Shown: positions 8,737-29,004 of the stretch, piece by piece
Layout: the number at the start of each line of letters is the position of its first letter
Position numbering within the stretch: position 1 is the first letter of the stretch
Virus record (IMG/VR): IMGVR_UViG_3300006903_000022
Coordinates: 1-29,466 of that record
Reading direction: 5' to 3' (one strand)
Origin: a virus
Length of the DNA stretch: 29,466 nt
Made by a program: the position numbers and the translations under genes
The notes under the pieces: generated by a model
What the model was told of the DNA's origin: nothing
The model's input: the letters and a program-made list of their open reading frames with translations, nothing else
Databases searched by the model: none

Positions 8737-9027
8737 CTAGCTATCGTCCTCGGCCTGAATCTCGGCAAGCCCCGTGAGGAAGCGTTCGGCCCGAGATGCC
8801 CGTCGTTGCTGGGTTGGCGTCGGCCGCCTGGGCCGCTTCCTAGCAGCGGCGAGCGCGACCATGCGCTGGTCTATGGCGTCCACGCCAGGCACTTCCGCCT
8901 CTGGCGCGTCCAGCACAACCGGGTCGCGCCGCAGCAGCTCCTCGACGGCCCACCTGAGCGCCTTTGTTGGGTGTGGCTGATCCTGGGCCGCGTCGAGCAG
9001 CGCGACCCACAGCGCTCGCCTACTCAT
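8737..9027 (-). CDS. Hypothetical basic protein, 96 aa
   Basis: ATG at 9027 overlaps the DUF6527 stop by 8 nt. The N-terminal helix reads SRRALWVALLDAAQDQ, followed by HPTKALRWAVEELLRRDPVV. The C-terminal half is Arg-rich (AAARKRPRRPTPTQQRRASR) and ends acidic (AEIQAEDDS). It has no cysteine and no membrane segment. The basic tract could contact nucleic acid. No family recognised. Confidence 0.55.
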   Translation of the reverse strand: MSRRALWVALLDAAQDQPHPTKALRWAVEELLRRDPVVLDAPEAEVPGVDAIDQRMVALAAARKRPRRPTPTQQRRASRAERFLTGLAEIQAEDDS

Positions 9028-10531: not shown

Positions 10532-10580
10532 TTGAGCCTCCAGTGTCGATAGGCGGTCGAGGAGGGAAGCGAAGCCAAGA

Positions 10581-11770: not shown

Positions 11771-11943
11771 GGCACGGAGTCCGACGGCGCTGAGTCTGAG
11801 ACGCACCTGATGCCGCCCTTGACGTAGACGACATGCGAGCCGGCTGGGCAGAGACCCTTCTGCCCCTGCGGGAGATAGAACGGCTGCTGGCACGCGACCC
11901 ACGCGACCAGCGCGACGCCAACGACGATCACCCAGCGGATCAC
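11767..11943 (-). CDS. Small lipoprotein, 58 aa
   Basis: GTG at 11943 overlaps the upstream TGA as GTGA, and the stop overlaps the next ATG as ATGA. N-terminus: VIRWVIVVGVALVAWVAC with a WVAC lipobox. The mature part is short (about 40 residues) with two further cysteines: GLCPAGSHVVYVKGGIRC, probably one disulphide, then an acidic Ser/Pro tail (SDSAPSDSVP). Its size and o-spanin-like lipoprotein layout are worth noting near a transglycosylase, but no Pro-rich o-spanin pattern is clear. Function unknown. Confidence 0.62.
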   Translation of the reverse strand: MIRWVIVVGVALVAWVACQQPFYLPQGQKGLCPAGSHVVYVKGGIRCVSDSAPSDSVP

Positions 11944-12527
11944 TTGCCCACCGCCTTCCTGATCGCGGCGACCCGCGCCGAGTCGGCGAGCGGCAGAACG
12001 TCGAAGTCGGACTGGAACGCGTCGACGATGTCGTAGTTGCAGTACGAGCCGTTGATGGCCTGGCGCTGCTTGCACTCCTGCAGCCGCTGCACTGGAATCT
12101 TGTGCCACAGGTAGACGCCGCGCTGGCCCTTGTACAGCCCGAACGTGCCGTAGGCGGGCGTGAAGGCGTAGACGATGCGGTCGGTCGAGTCGTTCGCCAG
12201 CTTCAACTGGAACGTTACCGTCCCGTCGCAGCCGTGGCGTAGGATCATGATCAGCCCGCACGGGTCGTCGTACGCCCAGTACTCCTCCATCTCGACGATG
12301 CCGCCGACGAGCGTGCCGTCCGCCTTCTGCGCGTTGAGCGTCGCCGGCCCTGCCCACGCGATCGAGTCCGGCTCCTGCGGCTCCATCGGCACGAGCTTCG
12401 CGGTCGGGCTCTGGATGCACCCGGTGAGGAACACGGACGTGATGAGCGCCACCCAGAAGGCTCCAACTGCGAGCCAGCCCCAGTGGCGCTCCGTGAACAC
12501 CTCGAACTTGATCAATCCCTCACGCAT
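11940..12527 (-). CDS. Putative lipoprotein, 195 aa
   Basis: ATG at 12527 with GGAGAAGG about 6 nt upstream. A polar start (MREGLIKFEVFTERHWG) precedes the hydrophobic segment WLAVGAFWVALITSVFLTGC with lipobox LTGC, so the signal peptide is long but typical. The mature domain is mixed beta (GTVTFQLKLANDSTDRIVYA), with four cysteines. A proline-rich stretch (PTAKLVPMEPQEP) follows the lipobox. It is the first gene after a gap and leads the exported cluster of lipoprotein, HEFGH lipoprotein and JAMM. No family recognised. Confidence 0.68.
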   Translation of the reverse strand: MREGLIKFEVFTERHWGWLAVGAFWVALITSVFLTGCIQSPTAKLVPMEPQEPDSIAWAGPATLNAQKADGTLVGGIVEMEEYWAYDDPCGLIMILRHGCDGTVTFQLKLANDSTDRIVYAFTPAYGTFGLYKGQRGVYLWHKIPVQRLQECKQRQAINGSYCNYDIVDAFQSDFDVLPLADSARVAAIRKAVGK

Positions 12528-12543
12528 GTCGCTACCTTCTCCG

Positions 12544-12578
12544 ATCTATACCGTCGGCTCCAACCCTTTCACCGACGG
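12544..12578 (-). promoter_or_regulatory. Intergenic hairpin and TATAGAT box before exported cluster
   Basis: The 74-nt gap between the transglycosylase stop and the 12527 ATG holds a perfect 7-bp inverted repeat, CCGTCGG (12551-12557) and CCGACGG (12572-12578), with a 14-bp loop. Immediately downstream on the minus strand is TATAGAT (12544-12550), a good -10-like box. The hairpin could end upstream transcription or be an operator, but no T-tract follows it. Pattern-based only. Confidence 0.35.
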
Positions 12579-12601
12579 CCAAGGCGGCGCCGAACGTCCG
12601 G

Positions 12602-13222
12602 CTATTGCAAGGGTCCCGCCGATGCCACGTCCCGACGCCAGCTTGTGCCGAGCGCCATCTGATCCCGAGCTGGACTCAGATCCGTCCTGTACAGCCGCTG
12701 CATCACCGCCAGCACGTACGCGTCGCCTGCCTTGATCTTCCTGGCGCAGCGCTCGTAGCTGTCGTTCTTGGTGCACCACGCGCCCGCGTACATCCGCAGG
12801 GCGTCGTTCCAGTTCCCACGCTGCTCGAAATACTCGACCGCGATGTGCGCGCCGACGCAGGCGTTGCGTCTCCGCGCCACCAGCGAGTCGAGCCCGCACT
12901 CGATCGGGAACGAATCGCGCCACATGCGAGGCAGGACCTGCATCAGACCGAGCGCGCCCGAGACTGGGTGCCGCGCCGTCGAGTCGCCTGACCAGTTCTC
13001 CACGTGACTGACCGCGATCGCGAGCGCCGTCGGCATCCCTGCTTCTCTGGCCGCCTGCGCGACGATCGAGTCGCGCTCCTGCGACGGGCCCGCGAACAGC
13101 GTGACGGCTGATTGTGTGGTATCGACTGGCCCGACGATCTTCGCCGAGACCGCGCCTGCGAGGAAGATGGCGCCGGCAGCGATAGCCGCCAGCATCGTGG
13201 CCCTCCACGCGGGCCGGCTCAC
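12602..13222 (-). CDS. Exported lytic transglycosylase (SLT/goose-lysozyme-like domain)
   Basis: 206 aa from GTG at 13222 (GTGA overlap). The N-terminal segment TMLAAIAAGAIFLAGAVSA is a signal peptide or signal anchor. The catalytic region reads AIAVSHVENWSG with Glu75, then HPVSGALGLMQVLPRMW with the GLMQ strand-helix of SLT transglycosylases, and a later MYAGAWC near the substrate cleft. It cleaves peptidoglycan glycan chains between MurNAc and GlcNAc. A Sec-type start argues for action from the periplasm during lysis, like signal-arrest endolysins, rather than packaging in the tail. It is the clearest lysis candidate here. Four cysteines suggest disulphides. Confidence 0.86.
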   Translation of the reverse strand: MSRPAWRATMLAAIAAGAIFLAGAVSAKIVGPVDTTQSAVTLFAGPSQERDSIVAQAAREAGMPTALAIAVSHVENWSGDSTARHPVSGALGLMQVLPRMWRDSFPIECGLDSLVARRRNACVGAHIAVEYFEQRGNWNDALRMYAGAWCTKNDSYERCARKIKAGDAYVLAVMQRLYRTDLSPARDQMALGTSWRRDVASAGPLQ

Positions 13223-13605
13223 GCCGTCACCAGGGTGCGCGGCGACGACTTGACGACGTTGAGCTCAAGCCACTCCTCCACGAGCGACTGCATCGCTGGA
13301 CGGCAGTGATCGAACGCCTCCACGACGGCCCAGACCTCTTCCTGCGTCAGCTGGATCCCGTGGGCCATGCGGAAGAGACTCGCGACGTTGTACTCCTCGT
13401 TGCCGTGGCGCGCCAGCCAGCGGTTCATCTCACCGTACGGCCCGAACGCCATGGCGAAGAAGCAGCTGTTCCAGTCGCCCGCCTTGGAGTGCTCCAGCGC
13501 GACGTGCGCGCGCAGCACGCGCTCCCGTCCCAGCTGCTCCAGGACGCGCGCGACCAGGTGCGTGTTGATCGTCTTGCCCTCGTTGTCCCCGTATGCGATG
13601 TTCAT
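13219..13605 (-). CDS. Conserved-looking hypothetical protein, 128 aa
   Basis: The start is placed at ATG 13605, because GGAGGG lies 7 nt upstream; ATG 13611 is only one base from it and the longer frame to 13659 overlaps the promoter. The protein is helical and soluble: INTHLVARVLEQLGRERVLR, then ALEHSKAGDWNSCFFAMAFG with two adjacent Phe and one Cys, then HGIQLTQEEVWAVVEAFDHC. No known catalytic motif. It has its own promoter of the same type as terS and is coupled as GTGA to the transglycosylase, so it may head a lysis or envelope operon. Confidence 0.66.
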   Translation of the reverse strand: MNIAYGDNEGKTINTHLVARVLEQLGRERVLRAHVALEHSKAGDWNSCFFAMAFGPYGEMNRWLARHGNEEYNVASLFRMAHGIQLTQEEVWAVVEAFDHCRPAMQSLVEEWLELNVVKSSPRTLVTA

Positions 13606-13649
13606 TGCCATACCCTCCAACGGTGGAAGAGACACAACCATTAGGTACC

Positions 13650-13678
13650 AGTCTAACACCTTGTCCGAAGCAAGCTAC
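13650..13678 (-). promoter_or_regulatory. Promoter P13650 (GTAGCT-N17-TAGACT)
   Basis: On the minus strand GTAGCT (13673-13678) and TAGACT (13650-13655) are separated by 17 bp. The -10 is preceded by GTGT, giving an extended TGnTAGACT, and followed by GGTACC. The same layout occurs before terS. It lies just after the terL stop and upstream of the 13605 start, in a gap with no gene. Expression would cover the 128-aa gene, transglycosylase and exported cluster. Confidence 0.55.
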
Positions 13679-13680
13679 TG

Positions 13681-15252
13681 CTACCCAAACATGATCTTCC
13701 GCGCCGGCTGCTGGTGGATGCCGAGATGGCGATGCAACGCTTGGACGAAAGCATCGTTGACGTCCAAGCCCGCGCCGCCCATCTGCAGCTGCTCGGCCGT
13801 CACGCGGAGGAGCCCCTGCTGCTCTGCCAAGAGCAGCCGCTCGTAGACCGTGCTCCTGATCCAGACGCGGCCCGCCGAGACGTGCGGCTGCACGCCGCTC
13901 GCCCTGGCCAGCTTGTCGCCCTTGACTGGCACCTCTTTCGCCGTGATCCCGTAGGCCTTCAGCTGCTGCACGGCACTCTTGCCCGACGCCTTCTCCTCCA
14001 CGTAGTGCGGCCCTGGGAGGCTCCGCAGCCACTCCACCAACTTCGGGAACTCGACCCACCTGAAGTCGACGTCGTCCACGTACACGTCGAAGTCGTCTGG
14101 CTTATTCGGCTTGCTCGGACCGCGGAAGCTCCGCACCCTGGCGCTCGCGCTGTTCCGCTCGTCCGCCGTCAGCGCCGTGTCCCAGTCGTCCCCGCCATTG
14201 TACGCGTCGGCTGGCAGCTCGTCGTATGTGCGGTTCTTGAACCAGTCGGCCTGCCAGAAGTCGCCGCTCGCCCGCATCGGCCGCTGCTGCCTCTGCGCCG
14301 CGACGACGTAGGGCGTGGACTGCTGCTGGCGCTCCTTGACCTCGGCCTCCGAGAACCGCGACGGCGCGAGAATCTGCCCGACCTTGCGCCAGTCCGGCTC
14401 GAGCGTGCACGTCGGCGGTAGACCCTTCGGCCCCGTCCATCTGCCCAACGGCTCCTCGGAGTGGATCTCGTCCAGGCAGACAACGTGCCAGTGCAGCGCG
14501 TGCTCGGTCAGCTCTTGCCGCAGCAGGTAGTCGATCGGATCATCCATCCCCAGCCGCTGCATCACGAAGAACATCTTGGCGCCGGGCTCGCGCGCGCGCA
14601 GCCAGTCGTTCTCCCACCACGTCTCGAACTTCTGTCTCCAAGCGTAGCTGAACGCGTGGGCCGGATCGATCGGGTCGTCCACGCCGCCGAGATGGAAGCC
14701 CTTGCCGATCGCGCTCCCTCCCATACCCGTCGCCCACATCTCGCCCTGGCGTCCAGTCCCGTCGGTGTGCACCGTCTGCCACCTGGCGCGCGCTTGCGCC
14801 TCAGGTGCCAGCACGCCGCCTGACCGCACGTAGTTCTCGCGCGCCGCCTCCGACAACTGCCATGCCAGATTCGCCGCGTGCGACGCCAGCGCGAACGTCT
14901 TGGCTGGGTTATGATGCAGGAAATAGCCGGGCAGCAGCCGCGAGAACACCTCCGACTTCAGGTAGCGCGGAGGCGCCAGGATCATGACGTACTTGAGTTT
15001 GCCAGCGAGCAGACGATCCACCACGTCGAGCAGCTTCGGCACGTGCTCGAACTGCAGCATGTCGGGCTTCATGTGGGAGACGTAGTCGCGGAACGTCTTG
15101 TAGACCTTGGCGCCGATGCCTCGATGCGCCATCTCCTGCGCGATCTTGTCCGCCCTGACGCTCGCGGGTGGCGGCAGCCCGCGGCGCTTCAGCTCGGCCG
15201 CGAGCATGTTGAGGCGGCGCTGCTCTGGACTCTCTGGTTCTCTGGCTGGCAT
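13681..15252 (-). CDS. terL: Terminase large subunit
   Basis: 523 aa with both halves of a TerL. ATPase: a deviant Walker A, ILAPPRYLKSEVFSRLLPG around 91-109, where the P-loop ends K99-S100; Walker B at HLGGVDDPIDP (187-197). Nuclease: YVDDVDFRW gives the first metal-binding Asp set, PHYVEEKASGKSAVQQLKAY the middle Glu, and GLDVNDAFVQAL the last Asp. The APPRxxKSE motif fits the PBSX/TIGR01630-like group. It packages DNA into the procapsid through the portal. No clear ribosome site precedes ATG 15252; a 12-nt gap follows the upstream gene. About 5 kb of small genes separate it from terS. Confidence 0.95.
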   Translation of the reverse strand: MPAREPESPEQRRLNMLAAELKRRGLPPPASVRADKIAQEMAHRGIGAKVYKTFRDYVSHMKPDMLQFEHVPKLLDVVDRLLAGKLKYVMILAPPRYLKSEVFSRLLPGYFLHHNPAKTFALASHAANLAWQLSEAARENYVRSGGVLAPEAQARARWQTVHTDGTGRQGEMWATGMGGSAIGKGFHLGGVDDPIDPAHAFSYAWRQKFETWWENDWLRAREPGAKMFFVMQRLGMDDPIDYLLRQELTEHALHWHVVCLDEIHSEEPLGRWTGPKGLPPTCTLEPDWRKVGQILAPSRFSEAEVKERQQQSTPYVVAAQRQQRPMRASGDFWQADWFKNRTYDELPADAYNGGDDWDTALTADERNSASARVRSFRGPSKPNKPDDFDVYVDDVDFRWVEFPKLVEWLRSLPGPHYVEEKASGKSAVQQLKAYGITAKEVPVKGDKLARASGVQPHVSAGRVWIRSTVYERLLLAEQQGLLRVTAEQLQMGGAGLDVNDAFVQALHRHLGIHQQPARKIMFG

Positions 15253-15264
15253 GCTGCTGGAAAC

Positions 15265-15474
15265 TTAACGCGGAGGGGCGAGCGCGGCTACCAACTCGAC
15301 GAGGTGATGATACGTGACCATGTGACCGAAGCCGTCGCTGCGATAGAGGCACCAGAAGCGCCCGCTGTGCGACACCTTGAGCCCATGTTCCTTGGCCATC
15401 GCCTTCGCGCTCGCCAGGCTCACCGAGATGCCTCGCCGACGAAGCTTGGCGGCCATCTTCTGCAGCTCGGTCAC
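15265..15474 (-). CDS. Hypothetical basic protein, 69 aa
   Basis: GTG at 15474 overlaps the upstream TGA as GTGA. The N-terminal helix ELQKMAAKLRRRGISVSLAS is strongly basic, followed by a strand segment (KVSHSGRFWCLYRSDGFG) and a helical end (YHHLVELVAALAPPR). It could bind DNA or terminase given its site just before terL, but this is only positional. No known domain. Confidence 0.52.
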   Translation of the reverse strand: MTELQKMAAKLRRRGISVSLASAKAMAKEHGLKVSHSGRFWCLYRSDGFGHMVTYHHLVELVAALAPPR

Positions 15475-15656
15475 CGAGTCGTGTCCAAGTTGACGATATG
15501 GCGCGTCCAGAACTGAAAGCAGTCCAGGTTGCAGAAGTCGAACTTGCGGTGACCAACACGCGGGCCGCGAAGCGTGACGAAGACGGCCGTCGGGTGCATC
15601 GCCGGGATCACGTCGCGGCACCGATCACACCTGACCTCGGACGTCGACGTCTTCAC
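15471..15656 (-). CDS. Small zinc-finger protein, 61 aa
   Basis: GTG at 15656 overlaps the thyX stop as GTGA. Motif: VRCDRCRDVIPAMHP, then KFDFCNLDCFQFWTRHI. Two Cys pairs (CxxC and CxxxC) about 30 residues apart plus an aromatic C-terminal helix resemble the treble-clef or TRASH/MYM-type zinc fingers. These often bind metal or nucleic acid. Too short for the usual gene caller but bounded on both sides by coupled junctions. Confidence 0.58.
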   Translation of the reverse strand: MKTSTSEVRCDRCRDVIPAMHPTAVFVTLRGPRVGHRKFDFCNLDCFQFWTRHIVNLDTTR

Positions 15657-16363
15657 GCGGCGCCCACGAACAGCTGCCACGTCCTGGGGAACTGATGGGC
15701 AATGAGCTTCCCCATGGCCCCGGCGTATTGCCTGACCTCCCACTGCGCCCCCTGGTCCATCCTGAGCGTCAGGAACGCGAGCCAGTTGCGCAGATTCGCT
15801 GATGCCCGCATCCGACTGTACTGCGCGACCGGGATCACGAGCCGCGCCAGCTCGCGCGCCAAGCCCATCTGCAGCAGCTCGACGTACGCGTCGCGCGACG
15901 TCTGCAAGCCCTGCTCCAGCAGGCCCTGGATCAGCGACGCCTTGCTCCCGTCGATGCCCTCGGCCGAGCCCTGCTTGTTCACCGTGGACTGCGCGCCCGC
16001 CATAATGCGCTCCAGGCTCGGGATGTAGACCAGGTCGGGCAGCGCCGTGTACCGCGCGCTGAGCTCGTTGTACGACTGCGTCCTGTGCCGGTGCCACTCG
16101 CGGAACACGAAGATCGGCGCCTGCACCTCGACGATCATCCCAGCCATCTCGAACGGCGTCAGGTGCTTGTGCTCATACAGGAACCGCAGCAGGCGCTCGT
16201 CGCCAGGCTGCTCCGCGGTGCCCCAGCCCTGGAACCCCTTGGCCGTGGACATCCGCGCGGCCTCGATGATTCGCTCGTCGCTGCCCCAGGCCTCCACGAG
16301 CCTGACGTAGCCGTGATCGAGGATCGGCTCTGCGATACGGTACGGCGACGCGTCAGTCTCCAC
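15653..16363 (-). CDS. thyX: Flavin-dependent thymidylate synthase
   Basis: 236 aa, GTG at 16363 overlapping the upstream gene by 11 nt. The ThyX signature RHRTQSYNELSARY stands at residues 92-105, matching RHRxxSxNExSxRY, preceded by HKHLTPFEMAG and FVFREW. The C-terminal region has SRMRASANLRNWLAFLTLRM with the substrate Arg. It makes dTMP from dUMP using methylene-tetrahydrofolate and FAD/NADPH and works as a homotetramer. Together with dCMP deaminase (10037-10531) it gives the phage its own dTMP route. No ThyA is present. No oddities except a short polar N-terminal extension (METDASPY). Confidence 0.96.
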   Translation of the reverse strand: METDASPYRIAEPILDHGYVRLVEAWGSDERIIEAARMSTAKGFQGWGTAEQPGDERLLRFLYEHKHLTPFEMAGMIVEVQAPIFVFREWHRHRTQSYNELSARYTALPDLVYIPSLERIMAGAQSTVNKQGSAEGIDGSKASLIQGLLEQGLQTSRDAYVELLQMGLARELARLVIPVAQYSRMRASANLRNWLAFLTLRMDQGAQWEVRQYAGAMGKLIAHQFPRTWQLFVGAA

Positions 16364-16637
16364 GCTGCCCCGTCGCGGCGACGTAGTCCTGCACGCTGGT
16401 GTAGCACCCAGACAGGTGAACGATGTCGCCCACCCTGATGTCCGGCAGCGGCGTCTTGAGGCAGAAGTACGTCCACGTGCAGCGCGTGTTGTCGAACGCG
16501 GACGCCGAGCAGAAGTCCTCGCGCTCGATCATGATGGCGCCGTTCGGCCGCGTCTCGACGTAGCGCCCGATCTGCGTGCTGCTCCACGGCTGATCGCATG
16601 CCGCCACGAGCAACAGTGCCGCGATGATGTACCTCAT
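16353..16637 (-). CDS. Small Cys-rich lipoprotein
   Basis: 94 aa from ATG at 16637 (ATGA overlap). N-terminus MRYIIAALLLVAAC is a short signal peptide with a VAAC lipobox. The mature domain has four more cysteines (EDFCSASAFDNTRC, WTYFC, LSGC), consistent with two disulphides, and a strand GDIVHLSGCY. It lies between the MazG-like and thyX genes, among nucleotide enzymes, which is odd for an exported protein. Function unknown. Confidence 0.63.
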   Translation of the reverse strand: MRYIIAALLLVAACDQPWSSTQIGRYVETRPNGAIMIEREDFCSASAFDNTRCTWTYFCLKTPLPDIRVGDIVHLSGCYTSVQDYVAATGQRGD

Positions 16638-17119
16638 GCTCGCTTCCCTCCGTGTCTGAACTCACGCGTCTCGTTGTACGCCATCTTGTCCAGCACCGCC
16701 TGTTGCAGGTCGATGTCGTGCTTCGCGGCGAAGCTCAGGATCCGAATGACGCAGTCGGCCAGCTCGATCGGGATACCCTCCGGCTTACCCGCGTGCACGT
16801 AGATTTCCGTTGGACTGTGCCACTTCCGATGCTCCTCGTACGCCTCGGCGATCTCGCAGACCATGAGCATGAGCAGATCGCCCGTCGTGCGACCCATCGC
16901 CTCGTCGTCGGCCCAGCCCTTCGCCTTCGTCCACTCCCAGATGTCCTTCTGGAGCTGCGCGAGCGTGGGCGGGTTGGCTATCCGCGCGTAGATCGCAGCC
17001 GCGGCCTCCAACTCTTCCGTGCTGGCAGACTCGACGTCCGCCTTCAAGCCGCCCAGCACGGTACCGGGCGAGTCGTCCGCGAGCGACGATGGATCCTGGT
17101 TTGGTTCGCCCTGGTTCAT
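16634..17119 (-). CDS. MazG-like nucleotide pyrophosphohydrolase
   Basis: 161 aa. The all-alpha NTP-PPase pattern is clear: VCEIAEAYEEHRKW with metal-binding Glu residues at 89-96, IELADCVIRILSFAAKH at 118-134 with Glu119 and Asp122, and the phage-family end KMAYNETREFRHGGKR. It is expected to hydrolyse NTPs or dNTPs to monophosphates; in phages such proteins may also lower (p)ppGpp or dUTP. The first 50 residues are acidic and likely flexible. ATG 17119 is coupled as ATGA. It sits beside Nudix and ThyX genes, a nucleotide-pool group. Confidence 0.85.
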   Translation of the reverse strand: MNQGEPNQDPSSLADDSPGTVLGGLKADVESASTEELEAAAAIYARIANPPTLAQLQKDIWEWTKAKGWADDEAMGRTTGDLLMLMVCEIAEAYEEHRKWHSPTEIYVHAGKPEGIPIELADCVIRILSFAAKHDIDLQQAVLDKMAYNETREFRHGGKRA

Positions 17120-17289
17120 TGCAACCTCCCTGTCCCAAGTATGTACGCGTGCGTCTGCTTAGCGGCCTCCTGGCGCTGGATCAGGTGCAGGCGCCAGCAT
17201 GCCCAGGCGCCCAGCGCCGTGCGTCTGATCTTGTGGCACGTCACGCATGGGTAGTTGCCGATGTGGACCGGACCTGTCGGCTTCATCAT
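17116..17289 (-). CDS. Small CxxC protein, 57 aa
   Basis: A frame too short for usual gene callers: MMKPTGPVHIGNYPCVTCHK, then RRTALGAWACWRLHLIQ and a polar end. ATG at 17289 overlaps the upstream TGA (ATGA), and its TGA overlaps the next ATG (ATGA), so it fills the junction exactly. GGGAGG for the next gene lies at its end. C-x2-C-H and a later Cys suggest a small metal site. No family. Confidence 0.58.
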   Translation of the reverse strand: MMKPTGPVHIGNYPCVTCHKIRRTALGAWACWRLHLIQRQEAAKQTHAYILGTGRLQ

Positions 17290-17681
17290 CGCAGTAATCT
17301 CGGTCCGGTGTTGTCGATCACGACGTCGCCCAGCTTGATGGCCACCAGACGATTCTCGCTGTCGCGTACGCGGTGCCCGGTCTGGAGTAAATCGCTGTTA
17401 CGAATCTTCTCGATCACCTGTGGCTCGAACTCCGTGTCGCTGCGCAGGACGATTGGGTATCGCTCCATCTCCGGCAGGATCGCCACGTCGAGCGATCCCA
17501 GCAACCGCGCCGCGATGAAGGCGGCCCACTGCGTCGGCGCATGCACGCGCATCCAGGTCCGACCCGCCGTGACCACGCGATCCCGATCTCTGATGGAGGG
17601 CGCCGCGTAGTCGTCCTCGTCCCACTCGAACTTGAACCCAGCAGGGTCGATCTGCCCCGCGCCCATGCGATACGTGGTCAT
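17286..17681 (-). CDS. Hypothetical protein, 131 aa
   Basis: ATG at 17681 (ATGA overlap). The N-terminus is acidic and aromatic (FKFEWDEDDYAAPSIRDRDR). The core looks alpha/beta: VVTAGRTWMRVHAPTQWAAF, then RLLGSLDVAILPE, and an end IKLGDVVIDNTGPRLLR. No cysteine, membrane segment or catalytic motif. Function not recognised. Confidence 0.55.
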   Translation of the reverse strand: MTTYRMGAGQIDPAGFKFEWDEDDYAAPSIRDRDRVVTAGRTWMRVHAPTQWAAFIAARLLGSLDVAILPEMERYPIVLRSDTEFEPQVIEKIRNSDLLQTGHRVRDSENRLVAIKLGDVVIDNTGPRLLR

Positions 17682-17866
17682 CCTGCCCAGATCCGACGTG
17701 CCTGCTGCTGCGTGAACGATCTGCCGCGGATCACGGCAACCGGCACCGTTGTGGCGTCCTCGACGTCCTTGACGACGCCGTCACCGTCACGATACTTGAT
17801 CCGCCCGCGCCCTGGCCCCATCTTGAACCTGGATCGCGCCTTCTTGCGCAGTTTCGAGAGCTTCAC
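17678..17866 (-). CDS. Hypothetical basic protein, 62 aa
   Basis: GTG at 17866 is coupled as GTGA to the Nudix gene. The N-terminus is very basic (KLSKLRKKARSRFKMGPGRG), then a small beta-like stretch (VPVAVIRGRSF) and a C-terminal QQQARRIWAG. Nucleic-acid binding is plausible from charge only. Confidence 0.48.
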   Translation of the reverse strand: MKLSKLRKKARSRFKMGPGRGRIKYRDGDGVVKDVEDATTVPVAVIRGRSFTQQQARRIWAG

Positions 17867-18429
17867 GGCGTCCCCGTCGCGTCGGCGATCGGCGTGTTGT
17901 CCTGCGGGTTCGGCGCGCCCTCGATCAGCGTGTACGGCCATGCCTCGCGCATCGGGTACATCGCCATCGGAACCAGGAACCTGAGGTTGGGCAGCACGGC
18001 GTCGGGCAACGGGTCCGTCCTGACCCACATCGGCGGCTCGTCGTAGTCCAGGTACGGGTGGATGATGTGCGGTGCCTCGACAGCTTCGATCTCGGCTCTG
18101 AAGAACGCCACCGCATAGACGTCCCCATCGTGCTCCGAACCTCTCAGCGTCGCGAAGTGCTCCCACGCGTCGATGCCGACGTACTCGATCTCCTCCGCGA
18201 ACTCGCGCACCATCGCTTGCAGGAACGACTCGCCCGGCTCCACCTTCCCACCGGGACCGTTCAAGCGTCCGGCTTGCCACGCTGGGTGCCTCTTGAGGAT
18301 CAACAGCACCGTGTTGACGCCCTTGACGAGCAAGAAGCCGACGACGTAGCGGCGCGGCTCCTTGATGCGCGTGGGCGGACAGTCGCCCTTGCAGACGGGC
18401 TTGGTCGGGCTCGTGTCGAGGCCGCTCAC
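17863..18429 (-). CDS. Nudix hydrolase
   Basis: 188 aa from GTG at 18429 (GTGA). The Nudix box is complete at residues 61-80: G61, E67, R75-E76, E79 and E80, in GKVEPGESFLQAMVREFAEE. Upstream is the usual strand LKRHPAWQAGRLNGPG, and downstream DVYAVAFFRAEIE. The enzyme should cleave a nucleoside diphosphate linked to X with Mg2+; the NGPGGK(V)EPGE start is like (8-oxo-)dGTP/MutT-type and related proteins, but the substrate cannot be fixed. The N-terminal 25 residues contain KPVCKGDCPP, a CxxxC not usual in Nudix. Confidence 0.93.
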   Translation of the reverse strand: MSGLDTSPTKPVCKGDCPPTRIKEPRRYVVGFLLVKGVNTVLLILKRHPAWQAGRLNGPGGKVEPGESFLQAMVREFAEEIEYVGIDAWEHFATLRGSEHDGDVYAVAFFRAEIEAVEAPHIIHPYLDYDEPPMWVRTDPLPDAVLPNLRFLVPMAMYPMREAWPYTLIEGAPNPQDNTPIADATGTP

Positions 18430-21131: not shown

Positions 21132-21388
21132 TTGCCCTCCACCTTGACGGCCTCGATGTCTGCCACGAACGGGTAGTCGACGGTCGGTAACTGCGCCTGC
21201 AGCGGCTTGCCGAGGTTTCGCTGCTGGAACCACAGCGTGCCAGTCCAGAGGATCTTGACGCGCTCGCGCCAGCTCAGCCGCCACTTCGTGACCGTCATCG
21301 TCTTGTCGCTGTAGGCGGGCAGCGGCAGCAGCGGCGGCTGGTTCTTTGCCCACACGACGTTCTGCTCGTCGAACTCGATCGGCGTCAT
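21128..21388 (-). CDS. Conserved small phage protein (QPxxxPLP / WRLSWRERVK family)
   Basis: 86 aa from ATG at 21388 (ATGA). The layout NVVWAKNQPPLLPLPAY, then VTKWRLSWRERVKILWTGTL followed by WFQQRNLGKPLQAQLP is one I know from many phages and prophages as a small conserved unknown: QP..xPLP, a W+L+S+RER motif, then W and PLQPQ. Its function is not known. The widespread occurrence supports the call; it is useful as a marker that this is phage DNA. Confidence 0.78.
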   Translation of the reverse strand: MTPIEFDEQNVVWAKNQPPLLPLPAYSDKTMTVTKWRLSWRERVKILWTGTLWFQQRNLGKPLQAQLPTVDYPFVADIEAVKVEGK

Positions 21389-21843
21389 GCCTGCATCCTC
21401 CTGTAGACTGCTCGCCAGAACCGCCCAGCCTCGCGCGTGTTCGCCGGGTCGTTCCACCATCGACTCTTGCCGCTCGGGTGCGGCGCGACGACCAGCACGA
21501 CGTTGCCGTTGTAGAACGCCTTGAACCACGGGACACTACCGAACCCAAACGCCCTCGCAACGTTCCGCCCGAGCAGGATCACGACGCGGCCCTTCCGCGC
21601 GAACAAGCCGCGATTCTCCATTCGTCGTGCTGCCAACCGCGCCCGCCGTGGCACCCACGGCTTACCCTTCCTGAGGAGATTACACCGCGTCGTGTTCCCG
21701 CGATAGACCACGACCGTCGTGCCCATCAGACCAGCGAGTCGCTTGCCGATGCGACCGAGCAGCGCCCCGTCTGATCCTGGCATCGTGCTCTGCTTCCCTG
21801 GCGCCTCGCCGATCAGGACGACCTGCGTCACCGCGTCGCTCAC
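21385..21843 (-). CDS. Uracil-DNA-glycosylase-superfamily protein
   Basis: 152 aa, GTG at 21843 (GTGA). Motif 1: VVLIGEAPGKQSTMPGSDG with GEAPG at 12-16. Motif 3: VVAPHPSGKSRWWNDPANTR with HPSGKSRWWN at 122-131. These two loops are those of the UDG fold. The four Fe-S cysteines of family 4/5 UDGs are missing; only one Cys is present, so it is not a family-4 enzyme. It may remove or recognise uracil or another modified base, or be a non-catalytic relative. It is interesting beside the dCMP deaminase and ThyX. The frame and motifs are sound; the precise activity is uncertain. Confidence 0.78.
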   Translation of the reverse strand: MSDAVTQVVLIGEAPGKQSTMPGSDGALLGRIGKRLAGLMGTTVVVYRGNTTRCNLLRKGKPWVPRRARLAARRMENRGLFARKGRVVILLGRNVARAFGFGSVPWFKAFYNGNVVLVVAPHPSGKSRWWNDPANTREAGRFWRAVYRRMQA

Positions 21844-22073
21844 TTGTAGAACGTCTCGGGGCCGGTGCGCCAGTGGCTGCGCTTGGTCGGCTGCGCCATC
21901 CCCATCGCGCCCATCTGCTCCTGCGTCATCGGCTTATTGCCCCACTCCACCATGGCGCCCTGGATCCCGCCGCGCTCGCACTTACACTCCCAGGAGATGC
22001 GCCTGACCTCGCCCGGCAGCGGCTGCTCGACGCGGCGGATGATCGGCTTCCGGCATGACGTGCACGCGCTCAT
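21840..22073 (-). CDS. Small zinc-binding protein, 77 aa
   Basis: ATG at 22073 (ATGA). Motif MSACTSCRKPIIRRVEQPLP, then SWECKCERGG: CxxC followed by CxC, a small zinc-ribbon-like knuckle. Then a Met/Gly-rich end (MTQEQMGAMGMAQPTK). Coupled to the UDG-like gene, so a helper role for DNA binding is possible but unproven. Confidence 0.58.
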   Translation of the reverse strand: MSACTSCRKPIIRRVEQPLPGEVRRISWECKCERGGIQGAMVEWGNKPMTQEQMGAMGMAQPTKRSHWRTGPETFYK

Positions 22074-23899
22074 CGGCTGGTGCTCCCGGAGTATTCGGTT
22101 GGACTCGTCGTCGGCTTGAAGCGCTTCACGAAGTTGATGATCTGCGGCATCGGCATCTTCTTGTCGCCGTCGCGGATGAGCTGCGCCAGCTTCAGCAGGT
22201 TCTTGATGTCGCGGCCCGTGCAGTCGGGGTGCATCTGCGTGATCTCGCGGATGTCAACGTCGGTGATCGCGATGCCCGCCGTGTCGGCCAGGACACGCCA
22301 GATCAGCTTCTGGTGCTCGATCGACGGCGTCTCGTACTTGATCTTCGCCACGCAGCGGCTCGCAATCGCGTCGTCCACCAGATCGGCGCGGTTCGTCGTC
22401 AGGAACAGGACGCCCTTGTAGTATTCAAGCACGCGCAGGAACACGCCGACGATGGCGTTCTGCTGCAGATCCGTCCCGCGCTCGGCGACGTAGACGTCGG
22501 CCTCGTCCAGAAGCAAGATCGCGTTCCAGCGCTGCGACCTGGCAAATACCTTGAGCAGCGCCTTCTCTAGCGACTCGGCGTGGAGCCCCAGCTGACTGCA
22601 CTGGACGGAGTACAGCGGGCGCTGTGCCACTTCGCAGTACACTTCGGCCGTCAGCGTCTTGCCCGTACCAGGCGGACCCGCGCACAGGATAATCGCGCCG
22701 AGACCCTTGCCCTTAATGATGTCCTTGAAGCCGCCCTTGTGCGCGAGCAGCATCTCGACGAGCCGCCGCTCCTCGCTCGGCAGCACCAGCTTGTCCCCGA
22801 GACTCTCGTCGTACTGGTACCGCTCCAGCTGGCCGAGGTGGACGCGGAGCCTGAGCTGCCGCCGCAGGTCGAAGATGGCGAGCATGGGGTGGAGCGGTAT
22901 CTCGATCGTCGGCTCCTTGTCGTACACGTCCTCCATCTCGGTGTCGTCGATCTCGTCGTCCTCGGGCTTGGAACGATAGCCAGTCGCCTCCTTCTTCGGC
23001 TTCTTGATCAGCTTCTCGCGCCGCTCTTGCTCCGCCTTGCGCTTCGCCAACCGGATCTCGTGCCGTCGCCAGAACCACTTGTCGTAGTGCCCGCCGCGGT
23101 CGTCGGATTTGTCCTTCGTCTCGTAGAACACGTCGATGACCACGCGCGCCGGCTCACCATCGCGGTCCAGCGTGACGTCGTTGTGCGTGTAACGCGACCA
23201 ACGATCACCATCGCCATTCCCATCACAGTTATCGATACCAGCACCACGCGCGAGATACTGATGCCCGATCAGCCCGACTGTGGCGTTGAAGCCTTCCACG
23301 TCGGCGAGGTACTTCTCGCGCAACTCATCCGTCTCAAGAACGTACCCCTTCCGCGCCAACGCCTCGACGACTGGGACGCCGATACAGTCCTCGTCGTGGA
23401 ACACAATGTCGCGGGACTCACGTCCGCCGAACTCAATCCAGAACAGACTGATATCCGTGTGCGCCGGGATGGTGCGCTCGCCGCGCTCCTTGTACTTCGG
23501 ATGGTACTTGACTTCCTCGACCCAATAGGCGTACCAGACGTCCGACGCCGGATCGCGCCAATAGAGGCGATGTCCAGGTACGTGCGCGATCACCTCGGTC
23601 ACCATCGCGCAGAAATGCTGGCACGTCCGACTCCGCACCGCGTCCGGGTTGTCGAAGGCCTTCAACCACGATACGATGTCGTCGCGGAGCGTCTGCGCGC
23701 CGCGATACCGCGAGCCCTTCGTCGCGAACGGCTTGATCAGCTCCAGCAACGACTCGACCTCGTCCCGCTCTAGGCGGACCAGGTCCAGCTCGATGTACCG
23801 TTGCCAGGTGAACTTCTGGAAGTCGACGTCGTCCGAGAAGCGATGCAGCTCTGCCTCGCCGATGGCGCGGGCCAGCTCTTCGTATATGCGGATTTCCAT
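22070..23899 (-). CDS. AAA+ ATPase with large N-terminal domain
   Basis: 609 aa. The C-terminal half is a clear AAA+ module: Walker A GPPGTGKT at 408-415, Walker B ILLLDEAD at 461-468, sensor-1 TTNRADL at 501-507, arginine finger region DDAIASRC at 509-516, and a helical lid (CTGRDIKNLLKLAQLI). The N-terminal 330 residues are large: helical start, then a beta-rich part (HVPGHRLYWRDPASDVWYAY and FWIEFGGRESRDIVF), then a basic Lys/Arg helix (RLAKRKAEQERREKLIKKPK) before an acidic linker. This resembles the DUF7025-type AAA proteins by layout. It may be a remodelling ATPase for DNA or virion protein. Its start carries the repeated leader copy B and no Shine-Dalgarno. Confidence 0.88.
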   Translation of the reverse strand: MEIRIYEELARAIGEAELHRFSDDVDFQKFTWQRYIELDLVRLERDEVESLLELIKPFATKGSRYRGAQTLRDDIVSWLKAFDNPDAVRSRTCQHFCAMVTEVIAHVPGHRLYWRDPASDVWYAYWVEEVKYHPKYKERGERTIPAHTDISLFWIEFGGRESRDIVFHDEDCIGVPVVEALARKGYVLETDELREKYLADVEGFNATVGLIGHQYLARGAGIDNCDGNGDGDRWSRYTHNDVTLDRDGEPARVVIDVFYETKDKSDDRGGHYDKWFWRRHEIRLAKRKAEQERREKLIKKPKKEATGYRSKPEDDEIDDTEMEDVYDKEPTIEIPLHPMLAIFDLRRQLRLRVHLGQLERYQYDESLGDKLVLPSEERRLVEMLLAHKGGFKDIIKGKGLGAIILCAGPPGTGKTLTAEVYCEVAQRPLYSVQCSQLGLHAESLEKALLKVFARSQRWNAILLLDEADVYVAERGTDLQQNAIVGVFLRVLEYYKGVLFLTTNRADLVDDAIASRCVAKIKYETPSIEHQKLIWRVLADTAGIAITDVDIREITQMHPDCTGRDIKNLLKLAQLIRDGDKKMPMPQIINFVKRFKPTTSPTEYSGSTSR

Positions 23900-23932: not shown

Positions 23933-24265
23933 TCAAATGATGAACCCGAGGTAGCGGCACGCCCGCGTTGCGCGGATCAACCCAGCGCGCTCGATCTGCC
24001 CCAGCACCTTCCAGTTACAGTAGACGCAGACGAGACCACGCACGAACTTGCGTTTCTGCTCCGGCGGGAGTTTCTTGAAGTTCGGAACATGCTTGTGATC
24101 TACCACCCATTTCTTCTCGTGCAGCTGGCTCGGACAACACGCGCACTCGCCGTTCTGCTCCGCGTACAACCGCGCGACGTCGTCCGCCGTGAGCCCGTAC
24201 GTCCGCCAGATGTGCTTGGCCCACCGCTCGCCAGCGGCGCGGCGCGAGAGCTTCTTGGCTATCAC
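23933..24265 (-). CDS. Recombination endonuclease VII homologue (HNH/His-Me finger)
   Basis: 110 aa from GTG at 24265 (GTGA overlap). Layout: TYGLTADDVARLYAEQNGEC, then CCPSQL, WVVDHKHVPNF and VRGLVCVYCNWKVLG. The zinc Cys pairs (CxxC at 41-44 and 80-83), the catalytic VDHxH, and RGLxCxxCN-x3-G are the Endonuclease_7 (PF02945) signature. T4 endonuclease VII resolves four-way and branched DNA before packaging. Compared with T4 gp49 (157 aa) it lacks the C-terminal dimer domain, as in many phage homologues. Here it lies between the SbcDC fusion and the AAA+ ATPase. Confidence 0.92.
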   Translation of the reverse strand: MIAKKLSRRAAGERWAKHIWRTYGLTADDVARLYAEQNGECACCPSQLHEKKWVVDHKHVPNFKKLPPEQKRKFVRGLVCVYCNWKVLGQIERAGLIRATRACRYLGFII

Positions 24266-24624
24266 GGCCTGACCACATACTCGCGCGGGGCGATCTGTGT
24301 CAGCTGGAACACCAACCGCGTCCGCGCGAACGACGTCAGCTGCTGCTTCCACGCCTGCACAGCCTCGGCCGTCTCTGGCAATTGGCCATGCTCGTCGAGC
24401 CACTTGGCCACCGCCACCGCCTTGTCAAACTCGCGCACGTGCCACACCGCCAACCCAGCAGCGCGGTGCGTGACGGTGTACCCGGGCCCGACTGGCGTGT
24501 GGTGACTGATCGCCAGGTGCACGGCGTAGTGGCCAATCACGGCCTCGGGCTCCACGGCGACTTGATCCTCGCCGCAGCGACAGATCGTCGTCCAGTCCTT
24601 GTCCACCAGCATCTCCGTCGTCAT
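24262..24624 (-). CDS. Hypothetical protein with N-terminal Cys/His cluster
   Basis: 120 aa from ATG at 24624 (ATGA with the SbcDC stop). TTICRCGEDQVAVEPEAVIG followed by HYAVHLAISHH gives a C-x-C...H-x3-H pattern resembling a short zinc finger. The rest is helical: EFDKAVAVAKWLDEHGQLPE and AVQAWKQQLTSFART. Coupled to endonuclease VII downstream. It could be a DNA-binding accessory of the recombination set; no family recognised. Confidence 0.6.
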   Translation of the reverse strand: MTTEMLVDKDWTTICRCGEDQVAVEPEAVIGHYAVHLAISHHTPVGPGYTVTHRAAGLAVWHVREFDKAVAVAKWLDEHGQLPETAEAVQAWKQQLTSFARTRLVFQLTQIAPREYVVRP

Positions 24625-27600
24625 TGGTTTGCCTCTACGGTTGCCATCTCTGATGGATCCAGCCCACCATTGCGCTCACCACCAGTAACAATCCGCGACA
24701 CACCGAAGTCGTCCTGCTCGATCATCACCGTCCCAGAGAACAGCGCCTGCAGCTGCGGGTCGTGCGAGATGGCGTAGATCGTTGGCACCACGGCCTGCAC
24801 GTCGCGCAGTGCCTCCATCAGGCCCTCTGCCCCACTCGCGTCCAGGAACCCGAACACCTCGTCCAGCACCAGGACGCCCAGCGCGCCTGGCACGTGCATC
24901 CACGTCGAGATTGCCTTCACGAGCGTCAGCATCACGCCGACGTCGATCCGTCTACGCTGGCCACCCGAGAGGGCTTCGTACGGGACCAGCAGCCCGTGCT
25001 CGTAGACCTTGAACTCCGTCCGCTCGCGCTGGTCGCCACCCTTGGTCCTGGATAGTGTGCTGAACTGCACGTCGTACACGCCCTGCGTCAGCGCGGGGAA
25101 GATGGCCCCACGCGCCGCGTTGAACGCGCCAGCGACTTCATCCATCAGTAGCGACTGGATCCCTTGCTTCGAGAACCCGACTCGCCAGTAGTCGTGCAGC
25201 GCCGCCTGCAGTGCCATAGACAGCTGTTCCTGCTTGCGCTTCTCCAGCCTCGCCTCTGCCTCCTTCACGCTCCCAACCGCGACCGCCTCGGACTGCCGAT
25301 GTGGGTTGGTCTCGCGGTCGACGAGCGCGATCGCGCGCTTGAGCTCAGCGCGCTTGTCGTCGAGCACCTTGGTGACGTGCTGCTTGGCCACCTCGCTGAT
25401 CCGCGCTGCTTCCTCCTCGAGCTGTTGAAGCCCATCCTTCGCGGCTTGCCGCTGGTCGGACCACCGCGCGATTGCCTCCGCCGCGGCGACGCCATGCTCG
25501 CACGAGTCGGCCGTGAGCTTCCACGCCGCCGCCGTCTCGACCGCGTCCGCCTTCGACTGCTGCAGCTTCGCAGCCAGATCGTTCAAGACTTGGATCTCGT
25601 TCCGGATCGGCGCCTCGCAGCGCTCGCGATGCTCCGGCTGAATCTGCTGTCCACAGCTGGGACACGTACCGTCGCGCGTCAGCTTCACGATCTCGTCGAG
25701 TTTCCGATGTGCCGTTTCCAGTTGCCGCGTCGTCTCGGCGATCTGCGTCGTGAACCGGATGACCGCCATGCGCGCCTCTTCTGCGTCCTTCCGCGCCGAG
25801 CGCAGATCGGCCGCGCTGGCTACGGGCGGGTATGGCTTTGACAGCTCGATCTCTGCCTGCGCCAGATGCTCTCGCATGACCCGCGTGTTCTGCTCGTTCG
25901 TCTGACTCAGCTGCTTCACCGCCTCCGCGGCGAGTTGCTCGAACGTATGCTGCACACTCGCATCGAACGTGTCGAGCGCGGCGAGCGCGGCCAACCGACG
26001 CTGCTCGTGCTCCTCGTTCCATTGTAGAAACCGCTGCTGCATCTGCTCCATCGTCACGCGCGCCGCGATCAGATGCTCCTCGGTCCCGCGCTGCAACCCA
26101 TCGTTCGCGGCCAAGTCTACCTTCAGCTGCTCGATACGCTTCTGCGCCGCGGCCGACGCGGACTGGTACGCCGAGAGCCCGATCAGATCCGCCAGCATCT
26201 CCTTCCGCTCGCCGTCCGTGGCCGACGCGAAGAGCAGCACGCGCTCCTGCGAAAAGTATCCCAGCGCCTGGAACAGCTCCGGCGTGACGCCGAGGTGGCG
26301 ATTCAGCTTCTCGGTCATCTCGTTCACCGACGTGGCTTCCCAGGGGATCGAGTCGTCGCCCTCGTAGACCTCCAGCCGCGACGCCTCACCACGAGTTCGC
26401 TTGACCTCCAGGACGCCGCCGTAACTATTCTCGAAGATCGCGTGGACGCTGCAGTCCTTCGCGCCCCAGCGTATCACCTCGTCGCCAGTGAGCCCCTTCG
26501 TCGTCCGCCCGAACAGGAGCCAGAAGAGGGACTCGAACAGCGTCGACTTGCCTGCGCCGTTGCTCGGGTAGTCGCGGCCCTTCCCCAACACCAGCCACGT
26601 ACCATCCAGCACGGGGAAGTCGGCCTCGGCGTACGAACAGAAGTTTCGCAAACCCAGCCACGTCAGCCGCACGTTGCTGAGCTGGCCAACGTCGTCGAGC
26701 GAGAGCAGCTGCCGTCCCAGCGCAAGCAGCTCCGCCTTCATCGCGGCCGCGCCCTCCGTGGTCAGGATGACATCGGATGGCGGGTTCGCCGCGATCCACC
26801 CCGCGAGGATCTGCTCACCAGTCAACCCGCGCAGCGCGGTGCGGTTCTCGATCGTCGTCGGCGTCGGCGCCACGACGGTGGCGTTCTCTGGCAGCTGTTC
26901 ACCGACTGAGCGCGTCAGCACGCGGTAGAAGTTCCCATCCGCGTGCACGTCCGCCGCTGTTTCGACGGTGCGGAACTCCGGTGAGCCTGACGGAGTGATT
27001 GCGGCGGCTGGCGGATCCACGTTGACGATCCACCAACCATGCATCAGCGCATCGCCGAAGTTATGATGCTCCGGTGAGCCGGGCACGAGCAAGATATGAG
27101 CGCCGAACTCCGCGCGACTGATGCACTGCGGATGGTGCAGATCGCCTGCGATCGATACCTTGTGCCGGCTCAACAGATCATCTGCTTCGATGCCGTACGG
27201 GAAGATGTACCCGTTCGGTCCATGACTGCCGCGCACAGTTGCATGGTACACGCCAACGTCAGACTGTAGAGGGGCTCGCAAGAGATCGGGTCGGGGCTGG
27301 GCACCCACGCCAGAGAACGTGATGCCTCCGCGTTCCACGATCGGCTGCGACAGAGAAGGATCCAACACCATGAGGTTCGACACCGACCGCGACAAGGCAG
27401 CCCAGATAGTCTGTTCTAAGACAATCTTACCGCCGACGCCGCGCGCATCGTGGTTGCCCCAGACCGCGAGCTTGGCCACGTCTGGGAATCGCCCAAACTC
27501 CTCCGCGAGCGCGGACAGCACGACGTTCAACGCGTAGCCCGCCGTGTGCACGAGATCGCCGCCAAACACCCACGGGCAGTCCAACTCCTGCGCGCGCTGC

Positions 27601-27725
27601 AGTGACGCGCGCAGCACGCCCAGCGTGCGTCGCAGGCGATCGTTCTCGAGACCGTCACCGTGCGCGAACGCCGCCCACGGGTGCGCATGCAGATCCGAGA
27701 TGACTACGACGCGACGAAAGCTCAC
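24621..27725 (-). CDS. SbcD-SbcC fusion: Mre11-type nuclease joined to Rad50-type ATPase
   Basis: 1034 aa from GTG at 27725 (GTGA with recA). N-terminal metallophosphoesterase: ISDLHAH (D11, H13), GGDLVH (D57), GNHD (N91-H92), GDLHH (H197), and VPGSPEHHNF; this is the SbcD/Mre11/T4 gp47 nuclease. After about residue 300 comes an SMC-type ATPase: Walker A SNGAGKST ending at 395, with an inserted RDYPS before it, a coiled-coil arm, zinc hook CPSCG at 688-692, the arm back, signature LSGGQ at 919-923, Walker B VLVLDE at 951-956, and ISHDPQ near the end. Normally SbcC (gp46) and SbcD (gp47) are separate genes. One open frame covers both, with no stop or internal start needed. It processes double-strand ends and hairpins, probably with RecA next door. 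Coupled both ways. Confidence 0.93.
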   Translation of the reverse strand: MSFRRVVVISDLHAHPWAAFAHGDGLENDRLRRTLGVLRASLQRAQELDCPWVFGGDLVHTAGYALNVVLSALAEEFGRFPDVAKLAVWGNHDARGVGGKIVLEQTIWAALSRSVSNLMVLDPSLSQPIVERGGITFSGVGAQPRPDLLRAPLQSDVGVYHATVRGSHGPNGYIFPYGIEADDLLSRHKVSIAGDLHHPQCISRAEFGAHILLVPGSPEHHNFGDALMHGWWIVNVDPPAAAITPSGSPEFRTVETAADVHADGNFYRVLTRSVGEQLPENATVVAPTPTTIENRTALRGLTGEQILAGWIAANPPSDVILTTEGAAAMKAELLALGRQLLSLDDVGQLSNVRLTWLGLRNFCSYAEADFPVLDGTWLVLGKGRDYPSNGAGKSTLFESLFWLLFGRTTKGLTGDEVIRWGAKDCSVHAIFENSYGGVLEVKRTRGEASRLEVYEGDDSIPWEATSVNEMTEKLNRHLGVTPELFQALGYFSQERVLLFASATDGERKEMLADLIGLSAYQSASAAAQKRIEQLKVDLAANDGLQRGTEEHLIAARVTMEQMQQRFLQWNEEHEQRRLAALAALDTFDASVQHTFEQLAAEAVKQLSQTNEQNTRVMREHLAQAEIELSKPYPPVASAADLRSARKDAEEARMAVIRFTTQIAETTRQLETAHRKLDEIVKLTRDGTCPSCGQQIQPEHRERCEAPIRNEIQVLNDLAAKLQQSKADAVETAAAWKLTADSCEHGVAAAEAIARWSDQRQAAKDGLQQLEEEAARISEVAKQHVTKVLDDKRAELKRAIALVDRETNPHRQSEAVAVGSVKEAEARLEKRKQEQLSMALQAALHDYWRVGFSKQGIQSLLMDEVAGAFNAARGAIFPALTQGVYDVQFSTLSRTKGGDQRERTEFKVYEHGLLVPYEALSGGQRRRIDVGVMLTLVKAISTWMHVPGALGVLVLDEVFGFLDASGAEGLMEALRDVQAVVPTIYAISHDPQLQALFSGTVMIEQDDFGVSRIVTGGERNGGLDPSEMATVEANQ

Positions 27726-28777
27726 GCTGTCTCCTTCTCTGGCACTTCGACCTCTGCGCTCGGCTTGCTCCCGCCCAACTTGCCTTCCTGGAGCAGAGCG
27801 TCCGTCTCCTCGAGCAGCTTCGGGAACGTAGCCAGGATCCCTCCGCCCACGTCGTCCTGATCCAGGAATCGCGCCTTGTTGTCGGCGTAGGAGCGTCCCA
27901 CCTTCTTGCCGTTGCAGAAGAGGAACTGCCCCTTCTCGTGTAGCACGCCCAGATCGGTCAGCACCGGGATGAGCCCGCTGTGCCGCTCGATCGGCTTGTC
28001 GAACGGGATCGACATCTGGACGCGCTTCCACGGCGGCGCGATGCGGTTCTTGTCCACGAACACCGTCACGATGACGCCGATGTACTCCTCGCCGCTCTTG
28101 ATCTTGCTCACGGTCCGCATGTCCAGGCGCTGCGTCGCGGAATACTTCGCCCCGCCGCCGCCCGGCGTGGTCCGCGGCTGCCACGCGTTGCCGATGGCCG
28201 CGATGATGTGGTTCGTCGCGAGATGGATGGCGTTAAGATTCAGCAACGTGCCGCCGACGAGCCGATAGAACGCCTTGAGCTCGCCAGCCTTGCTCATGTC
28301 GCGCTTCTCCAGCTGCTGCTCCATCTCGTGCTCCGTCGACAGCTGCGCCAGCGAGTCGCAGGCCAAGATACCTGGACCTTTCCGCTTCAGCGTCGGAAAC
28401 GCGGCCAGGAACGACTGCGCGGCCTTCAGGTGCTCCTTCACCGTGAGGCTGTTCACCACGGCCAGCTCGTTCACGTCGATGCCCAGACGCGCCGAGTGCT
28501 CCGCGTTGTACGCGCCCTCGGTGTCATCGAGCAGCGCGACGCCGCCCGCGCTCTGCGCAGCGGCGATGGCACGCGCCACCAAGAAACTCTTGCCTGTGCC
28601 CGGATCGCCGAAGATTTCGGCTGTGTGGCCGAGCGGGTACCCACGCAGGAAGCGGCCCGAGAGGGCCCAGTTCAGCGCGTAGTTGCCCGTGTCCAGCCAG
28701 CCACGCACCTGCAGCGCGTCGCGGGCGCTCTTGACGTCGAGCTTCTGGTCCTTCAACGCCTTCATCCACGATGTCAT
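27722..28777 (-). CDS. recA: RecA-like recombinase
   Basis: 351 aa from ATG at 28777 (ATGA overlap). Walker A GDPGTGKS at 57-64, catalytic Glu in LLDDTEGAY (E87), Walker B GILACD at 136-141, loop-2 region PGGGGAKYSATQRLDMR and the KNRIAPPWKRVQMSIPFD strand. This core is that of phage RecA/UvsX-type proteins with a short N-terminal region and no long C-terminal acidic tail. It forms filaments on ssDNA for strand exchange. It is translated just before the SbcDC fusion, a logical pairing for recombination-dependent replication. I use recA for the family, not for close orthology to the host gene. Confidence 0.92.
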   Translation of the reverse strand: MTSWMKALKDQKLDVKSARDALQVRGWLDTGNYALNWALSGRFLRGYPLGHTAEIFGDPGTGKSFLVARAIAAAQSAGGVALLDDTEGAYNAEHSARLGIDVNELAVVNSLTVKEHLKAAQSFLAAFPTLKRKGPGILACDSLAQLSTEHEMEQQLEKRDMSKAGELKAFYRLVGGTLLNLNAIHLATNHIIAAIGNAWQPRTTPGGGGAKYSATQRLDMRTVSKIKSGEEYIGVIVTVFVDKNRIAPPWKRVQMSIPFDKPIERHSGLIPVLTDLGVLHEKGQFLFCNGKKVGRSYADNKARFLDQDDVGGGILATFPKLLEETDALLQEGKLGGSKPSAEVEVPEKETA

Positions 28778-29004
28778 GGAATCACCGCCTCGCTTGCCTT
28801 CTCCTGGATGGTCGTGGCGTAGACGTGGACGCGCCGCCACGCGTGGATCCACTTCGAGTCGTTCAATGCTCCCGACCTGTCGACGTAGTCCTGCAGCTCG
28901 TTTGCCGCCTTCTGCAGCTCACCGACCGCGCTGTCACGTACGACGATGCAGTCCGTTCCCCTCGTCAGCAGTCTCGCGATTCCCACCCTCAGTCTCTTCC
29001 ACAT
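28774..29004 (-). CDS. Hypothetical protein, 76 aa
   Basis: ATG at 29004 has AGGAG five bases upstream and follows a gap with a strong hairpin. Basic start MWKRLRVGIARLLTRGTD, then mixed helix: GELQKAANELQDYVDRSGAL and WIHAWRRVHVYATTIQEKAS. The stop couples as ATGA to recA. Possibly a recombination accessory, from position only. Confidence 0.55.
   Translation of the reverse strand: MWKRLRVGIARLLTRGTDCIVVRDSAVGELQKAANELQDYVDRSGALNDSKWIHAWRRVHVYATTIQEKASEAVIP

Follow-up and report, generated by a model that had tools for sequence, protein, structure and literature searches.

The window analysed here spans an entire virus record from IMG/VR (29,466 bases), whose host group is bacteria. On its minus strand, 1034 codons run from 27725 to 24621 in a single uninterrupted frame with a GTG start, encoding a fused SbcD-SbcC (Mre11-Rad50) protein of 1034 aa. 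The preliminary description had correctly reported one 1034-aa frame at 24621-27725 but had omitted the strand, and the plus strand across the same interval contains stops throughout the frame. A Shine-Dalgarno sequence, AAGGAG, lies 5 nt 5' of the GTG start, and GC content at codon position 3 is high nearly throughout the gene, the junction between the two halves included, with the exception of the last 34 codons. Directly upstream is a gene for a UvsX/RecA-like recombinase (27722..28852, minus; phrog_97, E=7e-51; Pfam RecA). Downstream are a small ORF of unassigned function (24262..24624, minus) and a gene for Endonuclease VII, a T4 gp49-like Holliday-junction resolvase (23933..24403, minus; Pfam Endonuclease_7, E=2e-12; phrog_307/2914/2633), the true start of which is probably inside the listed ORF. 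The fusion gene overlaps the upstream UvsX gene by 4 nt and, at its stop, the small ORF by 4 nt, a gene layout typical of operons with translational coupling.

Downstream of these recombination genes, a 609-aa AAA ATPase is encoded at 22070-23899 (minus), which matched phrog_29662 'ATP-dependent protease' with E=6e-73 and also clamp-loader families. The window further carries a gene for a uracil-DNA-glycosylase-superfamily protein at 21385-21843 (minus; Pfam UDG, phrog_12275) and a thymidylate synthase family gene at 15653-16363 (minus; phrog_85). Positions 1-18113 were 99.98-100% identical to a contig from another sample, IMGVR_UViG_3300050514_000091 (L046/L047). That contig stops short of the SbcDC gene and extends 16.5 kb past window base 1, and the phage is therefore larger than the window.

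The N-terminal half of the protein (residues 5-291; 26853..27713, minus) was assigned to the Mre11/SbcD nuclease and capping domain by a Pfam Metallophos match at residues 5-148 and by model alignment. A structural model of residues 1-348 (mean pLDDT 74, pTM 0.73) matched P. furiosus Mre11 (1ii7_A) over residues 4-290 with a Z score of 23.8 (rmsd 3.8, 266 aligned residues) and E. coli SbcD (4lty) with a Z score of 21.7, whereas other phosphoesterases scored 15-18. These higher scores over residues 4-290 indicate that both the metallophosphoesterase fold and the Mre11-type capping domain are present in the model of the fusion protein. The nuclease motifs read D11-x-H13, G56-D57...H60, GNHD at 90-93, H161 and GDLH at 194-197. 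The claim that all metallophosphoesterase motifs were there thus held for D-x-H, GD, GNHD and H, but the GHxH motif reads GDLH, so that Asp195 stands for P. furiosus His206. An Asp at the equivalent position was also found in most fused phage proteins and in Mimivirus R555, and four of the six members of the window's own family have His there. Because Asp195 replaces a metal-binding His, the activity could be altered.

Residues 303-342 (26700..26819, minus) were predicted as a helix-loop-helix and form a candidate Rad50-binding domain. The helices lie at 303-313 and 326-342 in the whole-protein model, with low to moderate confidence and a strand from residue 352, and at 303-313 and 323-347 in the N-half model, with pLDDT of about 54-66; the helix-loop-helix reading is our inference from these models. 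The whole-protein model, at moderate confidence, joins the second helix to the ATPase lobe by about 9 residues (343-351). What had been described as a linker at residues 240-345 therefore consists mostly of the capping domain (to ~291) and the predicted helix-loop-helix, which would leave some 9 residues as the actual linker. For the T. maritima complex, Yoshida, Claverie and Ogata (2011; PMC3175470) gave a gap of about 28 A and estimated that 9 to 12 linker residues would suffice.

The C-terminal half matched the PHROG family phrog_77 (SbcC) at residues 350-1013 with E=6e-76. Its N-lobe with Walker A (residues 352-535; 26121..26672, minus) was recognized by a Pfam AAA_23 match at 359-535, by the strand from residue 352 and by matches to Rad50 in the PDB. 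The C-lobe, which carries LSGGQ, Walker B and H988 (residues ~904-1014; 24684..25014, minus), was recognized by SbcC_Walker_B (915-974) and by PDB matches to the Rad50 C-lobe. The individual motifs are Walker A NGAGKST (389-395), CPSCG (688-692), LSGGQ (919-923), LVLDEVF with D955 and E956, and H988. Between the lobes, long helices were predicted at 517-628, 638-683, 697-774 and 776-850, so that Walker A, LSGG and Walker B are distributed over two lobes parted by a coiled coil, as in a split ABC ATPase. The CPSCG motif (25650..25664, minus) sits at the coiled-coil tip as a CxxC zinc hook, with matches to the zinc-hook crystals 1l8d (by family profile) and 6zff, and all four family members whose sequence extends this far retain CPxC. 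Motif reading and Pfam together bear out the earlier statement that Rad50-like motifs, the CPSCG hook and LSGGQ follow the nuclease motifs. A nuclease and then an ATPase in one continuous frame is the arrangement that defines Mre11/Rad50 (SbcDC) fusion proteins. The top PDB matches of the whole-protein model (mean pLDDT 65) include Rad50 complexes, with Mre11-Rad50-Nbs1 first, and the model, folded from shallow alignments of 6-7 sequences, is too weak to fix the placement of the nuclease half relative to the ATPase half.

Five further IMG/VR contigs, with 41-48% identity to the window protein, carry a continuous frame across the junction. The fused gene reaches its natural end in IMGVR_UViG_3300027987_000213 and 3300005253_000487 and is cut by the contig end in 3300050515_000079, 3300032053_014860 and 3300027987_000047. 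Searches with the adjacent UvsX gene and with an alignment of the family led to these relatives; a search of viral contigs with the window fusion protein alone returned no relatives, and an alignment of ten proteins was too divergent for searching. In the relatives, the fused gene comes after genes for SSB and UvsX (SSB was tested in all but 3300050515_000079), and in the window the SSB gene would fall past the edge. Two peptide patterns found no relative in a collection of genome contigs, and the family therefore looks phage-borne. The fused SbcD-SbcC gene is real, intact and conserved, and the view that it is a natural fusion in one polypeptide is upheld by the intact frame, both sets of domains and the orthologous fusions. 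In 3300005253_000487, the gene immediately after the fused one is QueC-like (L017:10978-11823; phrog_1550, E=2e-35), which suggests deazaguanine chemistry, perhaps DNA modification, in that phage.

The RDYPS insertion before NGAGKST, described at first as unusual, has a counterpart of like length in all six family members. In five of them the stretch reads G-[KRE]-G-R-D-[YF]-x-SNGAGK, and in the sixth it reads GRGSIYPSNGAGK. A longer insertion occurs at the same place in the split SbcC of Herelleviridae, a T5-like Klebsiella phage, Mardecavirus and a split relative (L044, 3300010047_000156), and none is found in the other fused phages, KVP40, C48C1 or Thalassa. Being family-wide and also present in split phage SbcC, the insertion is a mark of lineage and no oddity.

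Fusions of this kind were described by Yoshida et al. (PMC3175470) in Mimivirus (R555), Bacillus phage 0305phi8-36, a Clostridium kluyveri plasmid and a Deferribacter megaplasmid, as well as in other bacteria and eukaryotes, with viruses argued to be their main home. The same authors remarked that Asp replaces His206 in fusions and that the GDxxH variant occurs in them. By that published description, the known fusions resemble the window protein in having the nuclease N-terminal and the ATPase C-terminal in one chain and probably in a short linker after the capping and helix-loop-helix parts, and R555 additionally combines motif II GDxxH with Asp for His206, as the window protein does. Unlike the published fusions, the window gene belongs to a small operon that also includes UvsX and Endonuclease VII. 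Phrase searches of the available library of papers found no later work on natural SbcCD fusions, and we came upon no biochemical assay of any member.

Nine isolated phages also carry a fused SbcDC: Cobetia Carin-5 (995 aa), Rhizobium RHph_TM30 (959), Vibrio 1.031.O (1054), Xanthomonas phiXF1 (951), Acinetobacter Ab1-TPeters (935) and AbaM_3098 (938), Thermus phiLo (866), Vibrio Va2 (1082) and Escherichia IME392 (921). Seven of these proteins have Metallophos and ATPase Pfam matches at E<0.01, and in the alignment the invariant nuclease residues are retained by the remaining two. They share with the window protein the domain order, a single gene (866-1082 codons) and the invariant nuclease and ATPase residues, but are only 16-22% identical to it and have a canonical Walker A with no insertion. 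Most of the records are labelled just 'SbcC-like', 'SbcD-like', 'coil containing' or 'hypothetical', and with annotations that name one half or none an SbcDC fusion is easily overlooked. The idea that the fusion was new does not survive the 2011 report and these nine phages, since many phages with the same fusion were what the preliminary description had named as counting against it; the window protein is a new example of an already described type.

Among split systems, the two-gene SbcD/SbcC (gp47/gp46-like) of Herelleviridae and T5-like phages stands close to the window protein in its best PHROG match, phrog_77, and in the Walker A loop insertion. It differs in being encoded by two genes, with a gap or a small ORF between them in most loci examined. 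T4 gp46/gp47 is alike in its presumed action in recombination-dependent replication, together with UvsX and Endonuclease VII functions, but consists of two genes, and the T4-type relatives tested (KVP40, C48C1) formed a clade apart from the window family. Yersinia phage YerA41 (L009:2905-5942) encodes the nuclease and the N-terminal ATPase half in one gene, and a second gene that overlaps it supplies the C-terminal part of the ATPase; either the split point differs there or a frameshift is present. In the related vB_Yru_GN1, the alignment to Carin-5 runs through in a single piece. Rhizobium phage RHph_TM21B has a fused-SbcDC match without an annotated gene (L014:3001-5480), which may be broken or missed. 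Single-piece tblastn matches in SPG24 and BSP18 that resembled fusions were two genes read through a stop.

The likeliest role of the fused protein, judged from the analysis as a whole, would be to resect phage DNA ends, supplying UvsX and Endonuclease VII during recombination-dependent replication of the T4 type. We consider it highly probable that it is a single-chain phage SbcCD in a recombination operon, acting as a 2:2 complex that resects ends for UvsX with Endonuclease VII as resolvase. The intactness, domain order, motifs, folds (by model comparison) and gene order provide the basis of this account, from which we infer activity, dimer geometry and the role in replication. Two chains would pair through their nuclease halves, ATP-bound ATPase heads and zinc hooks to give the usual 2:2 complex, in which each helix-loop-helix would rest on a coiled-coil root, its own or the partner chain's, joined by the ~9 residues. 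ATP-gated endo/exonuclease action at DNA ends would leave 3' single strands, on which UvsX would load for strand invasion, as with T4 gp46/gp47 in recombination-dependent replication, and Endonuclease VII would resolve the resulting junctions. The canonical Mre11-Rad50 head complex consists of two Mre11 and two Rad50 subunits (e.g., PDB 6S6V). With two nucleases and two ATPases already there, the fusion fixes the 1:1 ratio and should not, as had been proposed, change the stoichiometry; it may simplify co-expression and assembly. It is improbable that the protein is chiefly a host-DNA-degrading or counter-defence nuclease that is incidentally fused: an annotation note for KVP40 assigns T4-type gp46/47 a part in breaking down host DNA as well, but recombination is favoured by the location of the gene, which has UvsX on one side and Endonuclease VII on the other and follows SSB and UvsX throughout the family, and degradation and recombination are not mutually exclusive.

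Alongside the fusion, the gene might yield a separate SbcC polypeptide (residues 329-1034) if translation also began at the internal ATG of codon 329, just ahead of the ATPase half, where GGAGG lies 11 nt before the ATG. This spacing is long, internal codon 976 scores equally, and ATG 329 and its surroundings are unconserved in the other five family members; we rejected this start, which appears very unlikely, on the lack of conservation. Least credible, at a practically negligible probability, is an assembly or sequencing artefact that joined adjacent genes through a missed stop or frameshift, as the preliminary description had allowed, for although two adjacent genes are the usual layout and the split relative L044 has the same gene order, this reading is already refuted by the orthologous fusions, with five independent contigs at 41-48% identity sharing the same continuous frame and two reaching a natural end, and the codon-position composition unbroken over the junction and the good Shine-Dalgarno sequence at the gene start also stand against it.

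In a tree of the nuclease and ATPase N-lobe, the six window-family fusions formed a clade with 100/100 support, and eight other fusions formed a separate clade with 99/98 support. Constraining all fusions together gave a p-AU of 0.338, by which a single origin is neither shown nor rejected. In a first tree of the ATPase lobes alone, the fusions grouped at 68/67, with some C-lobe anchors (e.g., EFDG1) doubtful and SPG24 dropped out. We lean slightly towards a separate origin of the fusion in the window clade, in which a split pair of the Herelleviridae/T5 type was joined independently of the remaining phage SbcDC fusions, because the Walker A insertion is shared with split phages and absent from other fusions, and because L044 keeps the order SSB-UvsX-SbcD-SbcC, with SbcD and SbcC as separate genes in different frames. 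Between its SbcD and SbcC, L044 has a stretch (L044:5017-5492) encoding a possible small HNH-endonuclease-like protein, and a homing-type insertion is possible there.

The window fusion leaves the picture of the Mre11-Rad50 system unchanged. At 1034 aa and with short coiled coils, the protein could serve as a single-chain construct for Mre11-Rad50 head structures, and L044, whose genes are split but follow the same operon order, provides a before/after pair for the study of gene fusion. With this family, a well-supported clade of environmental phages joins the known single-chain Mre11-Rad50 proteins.
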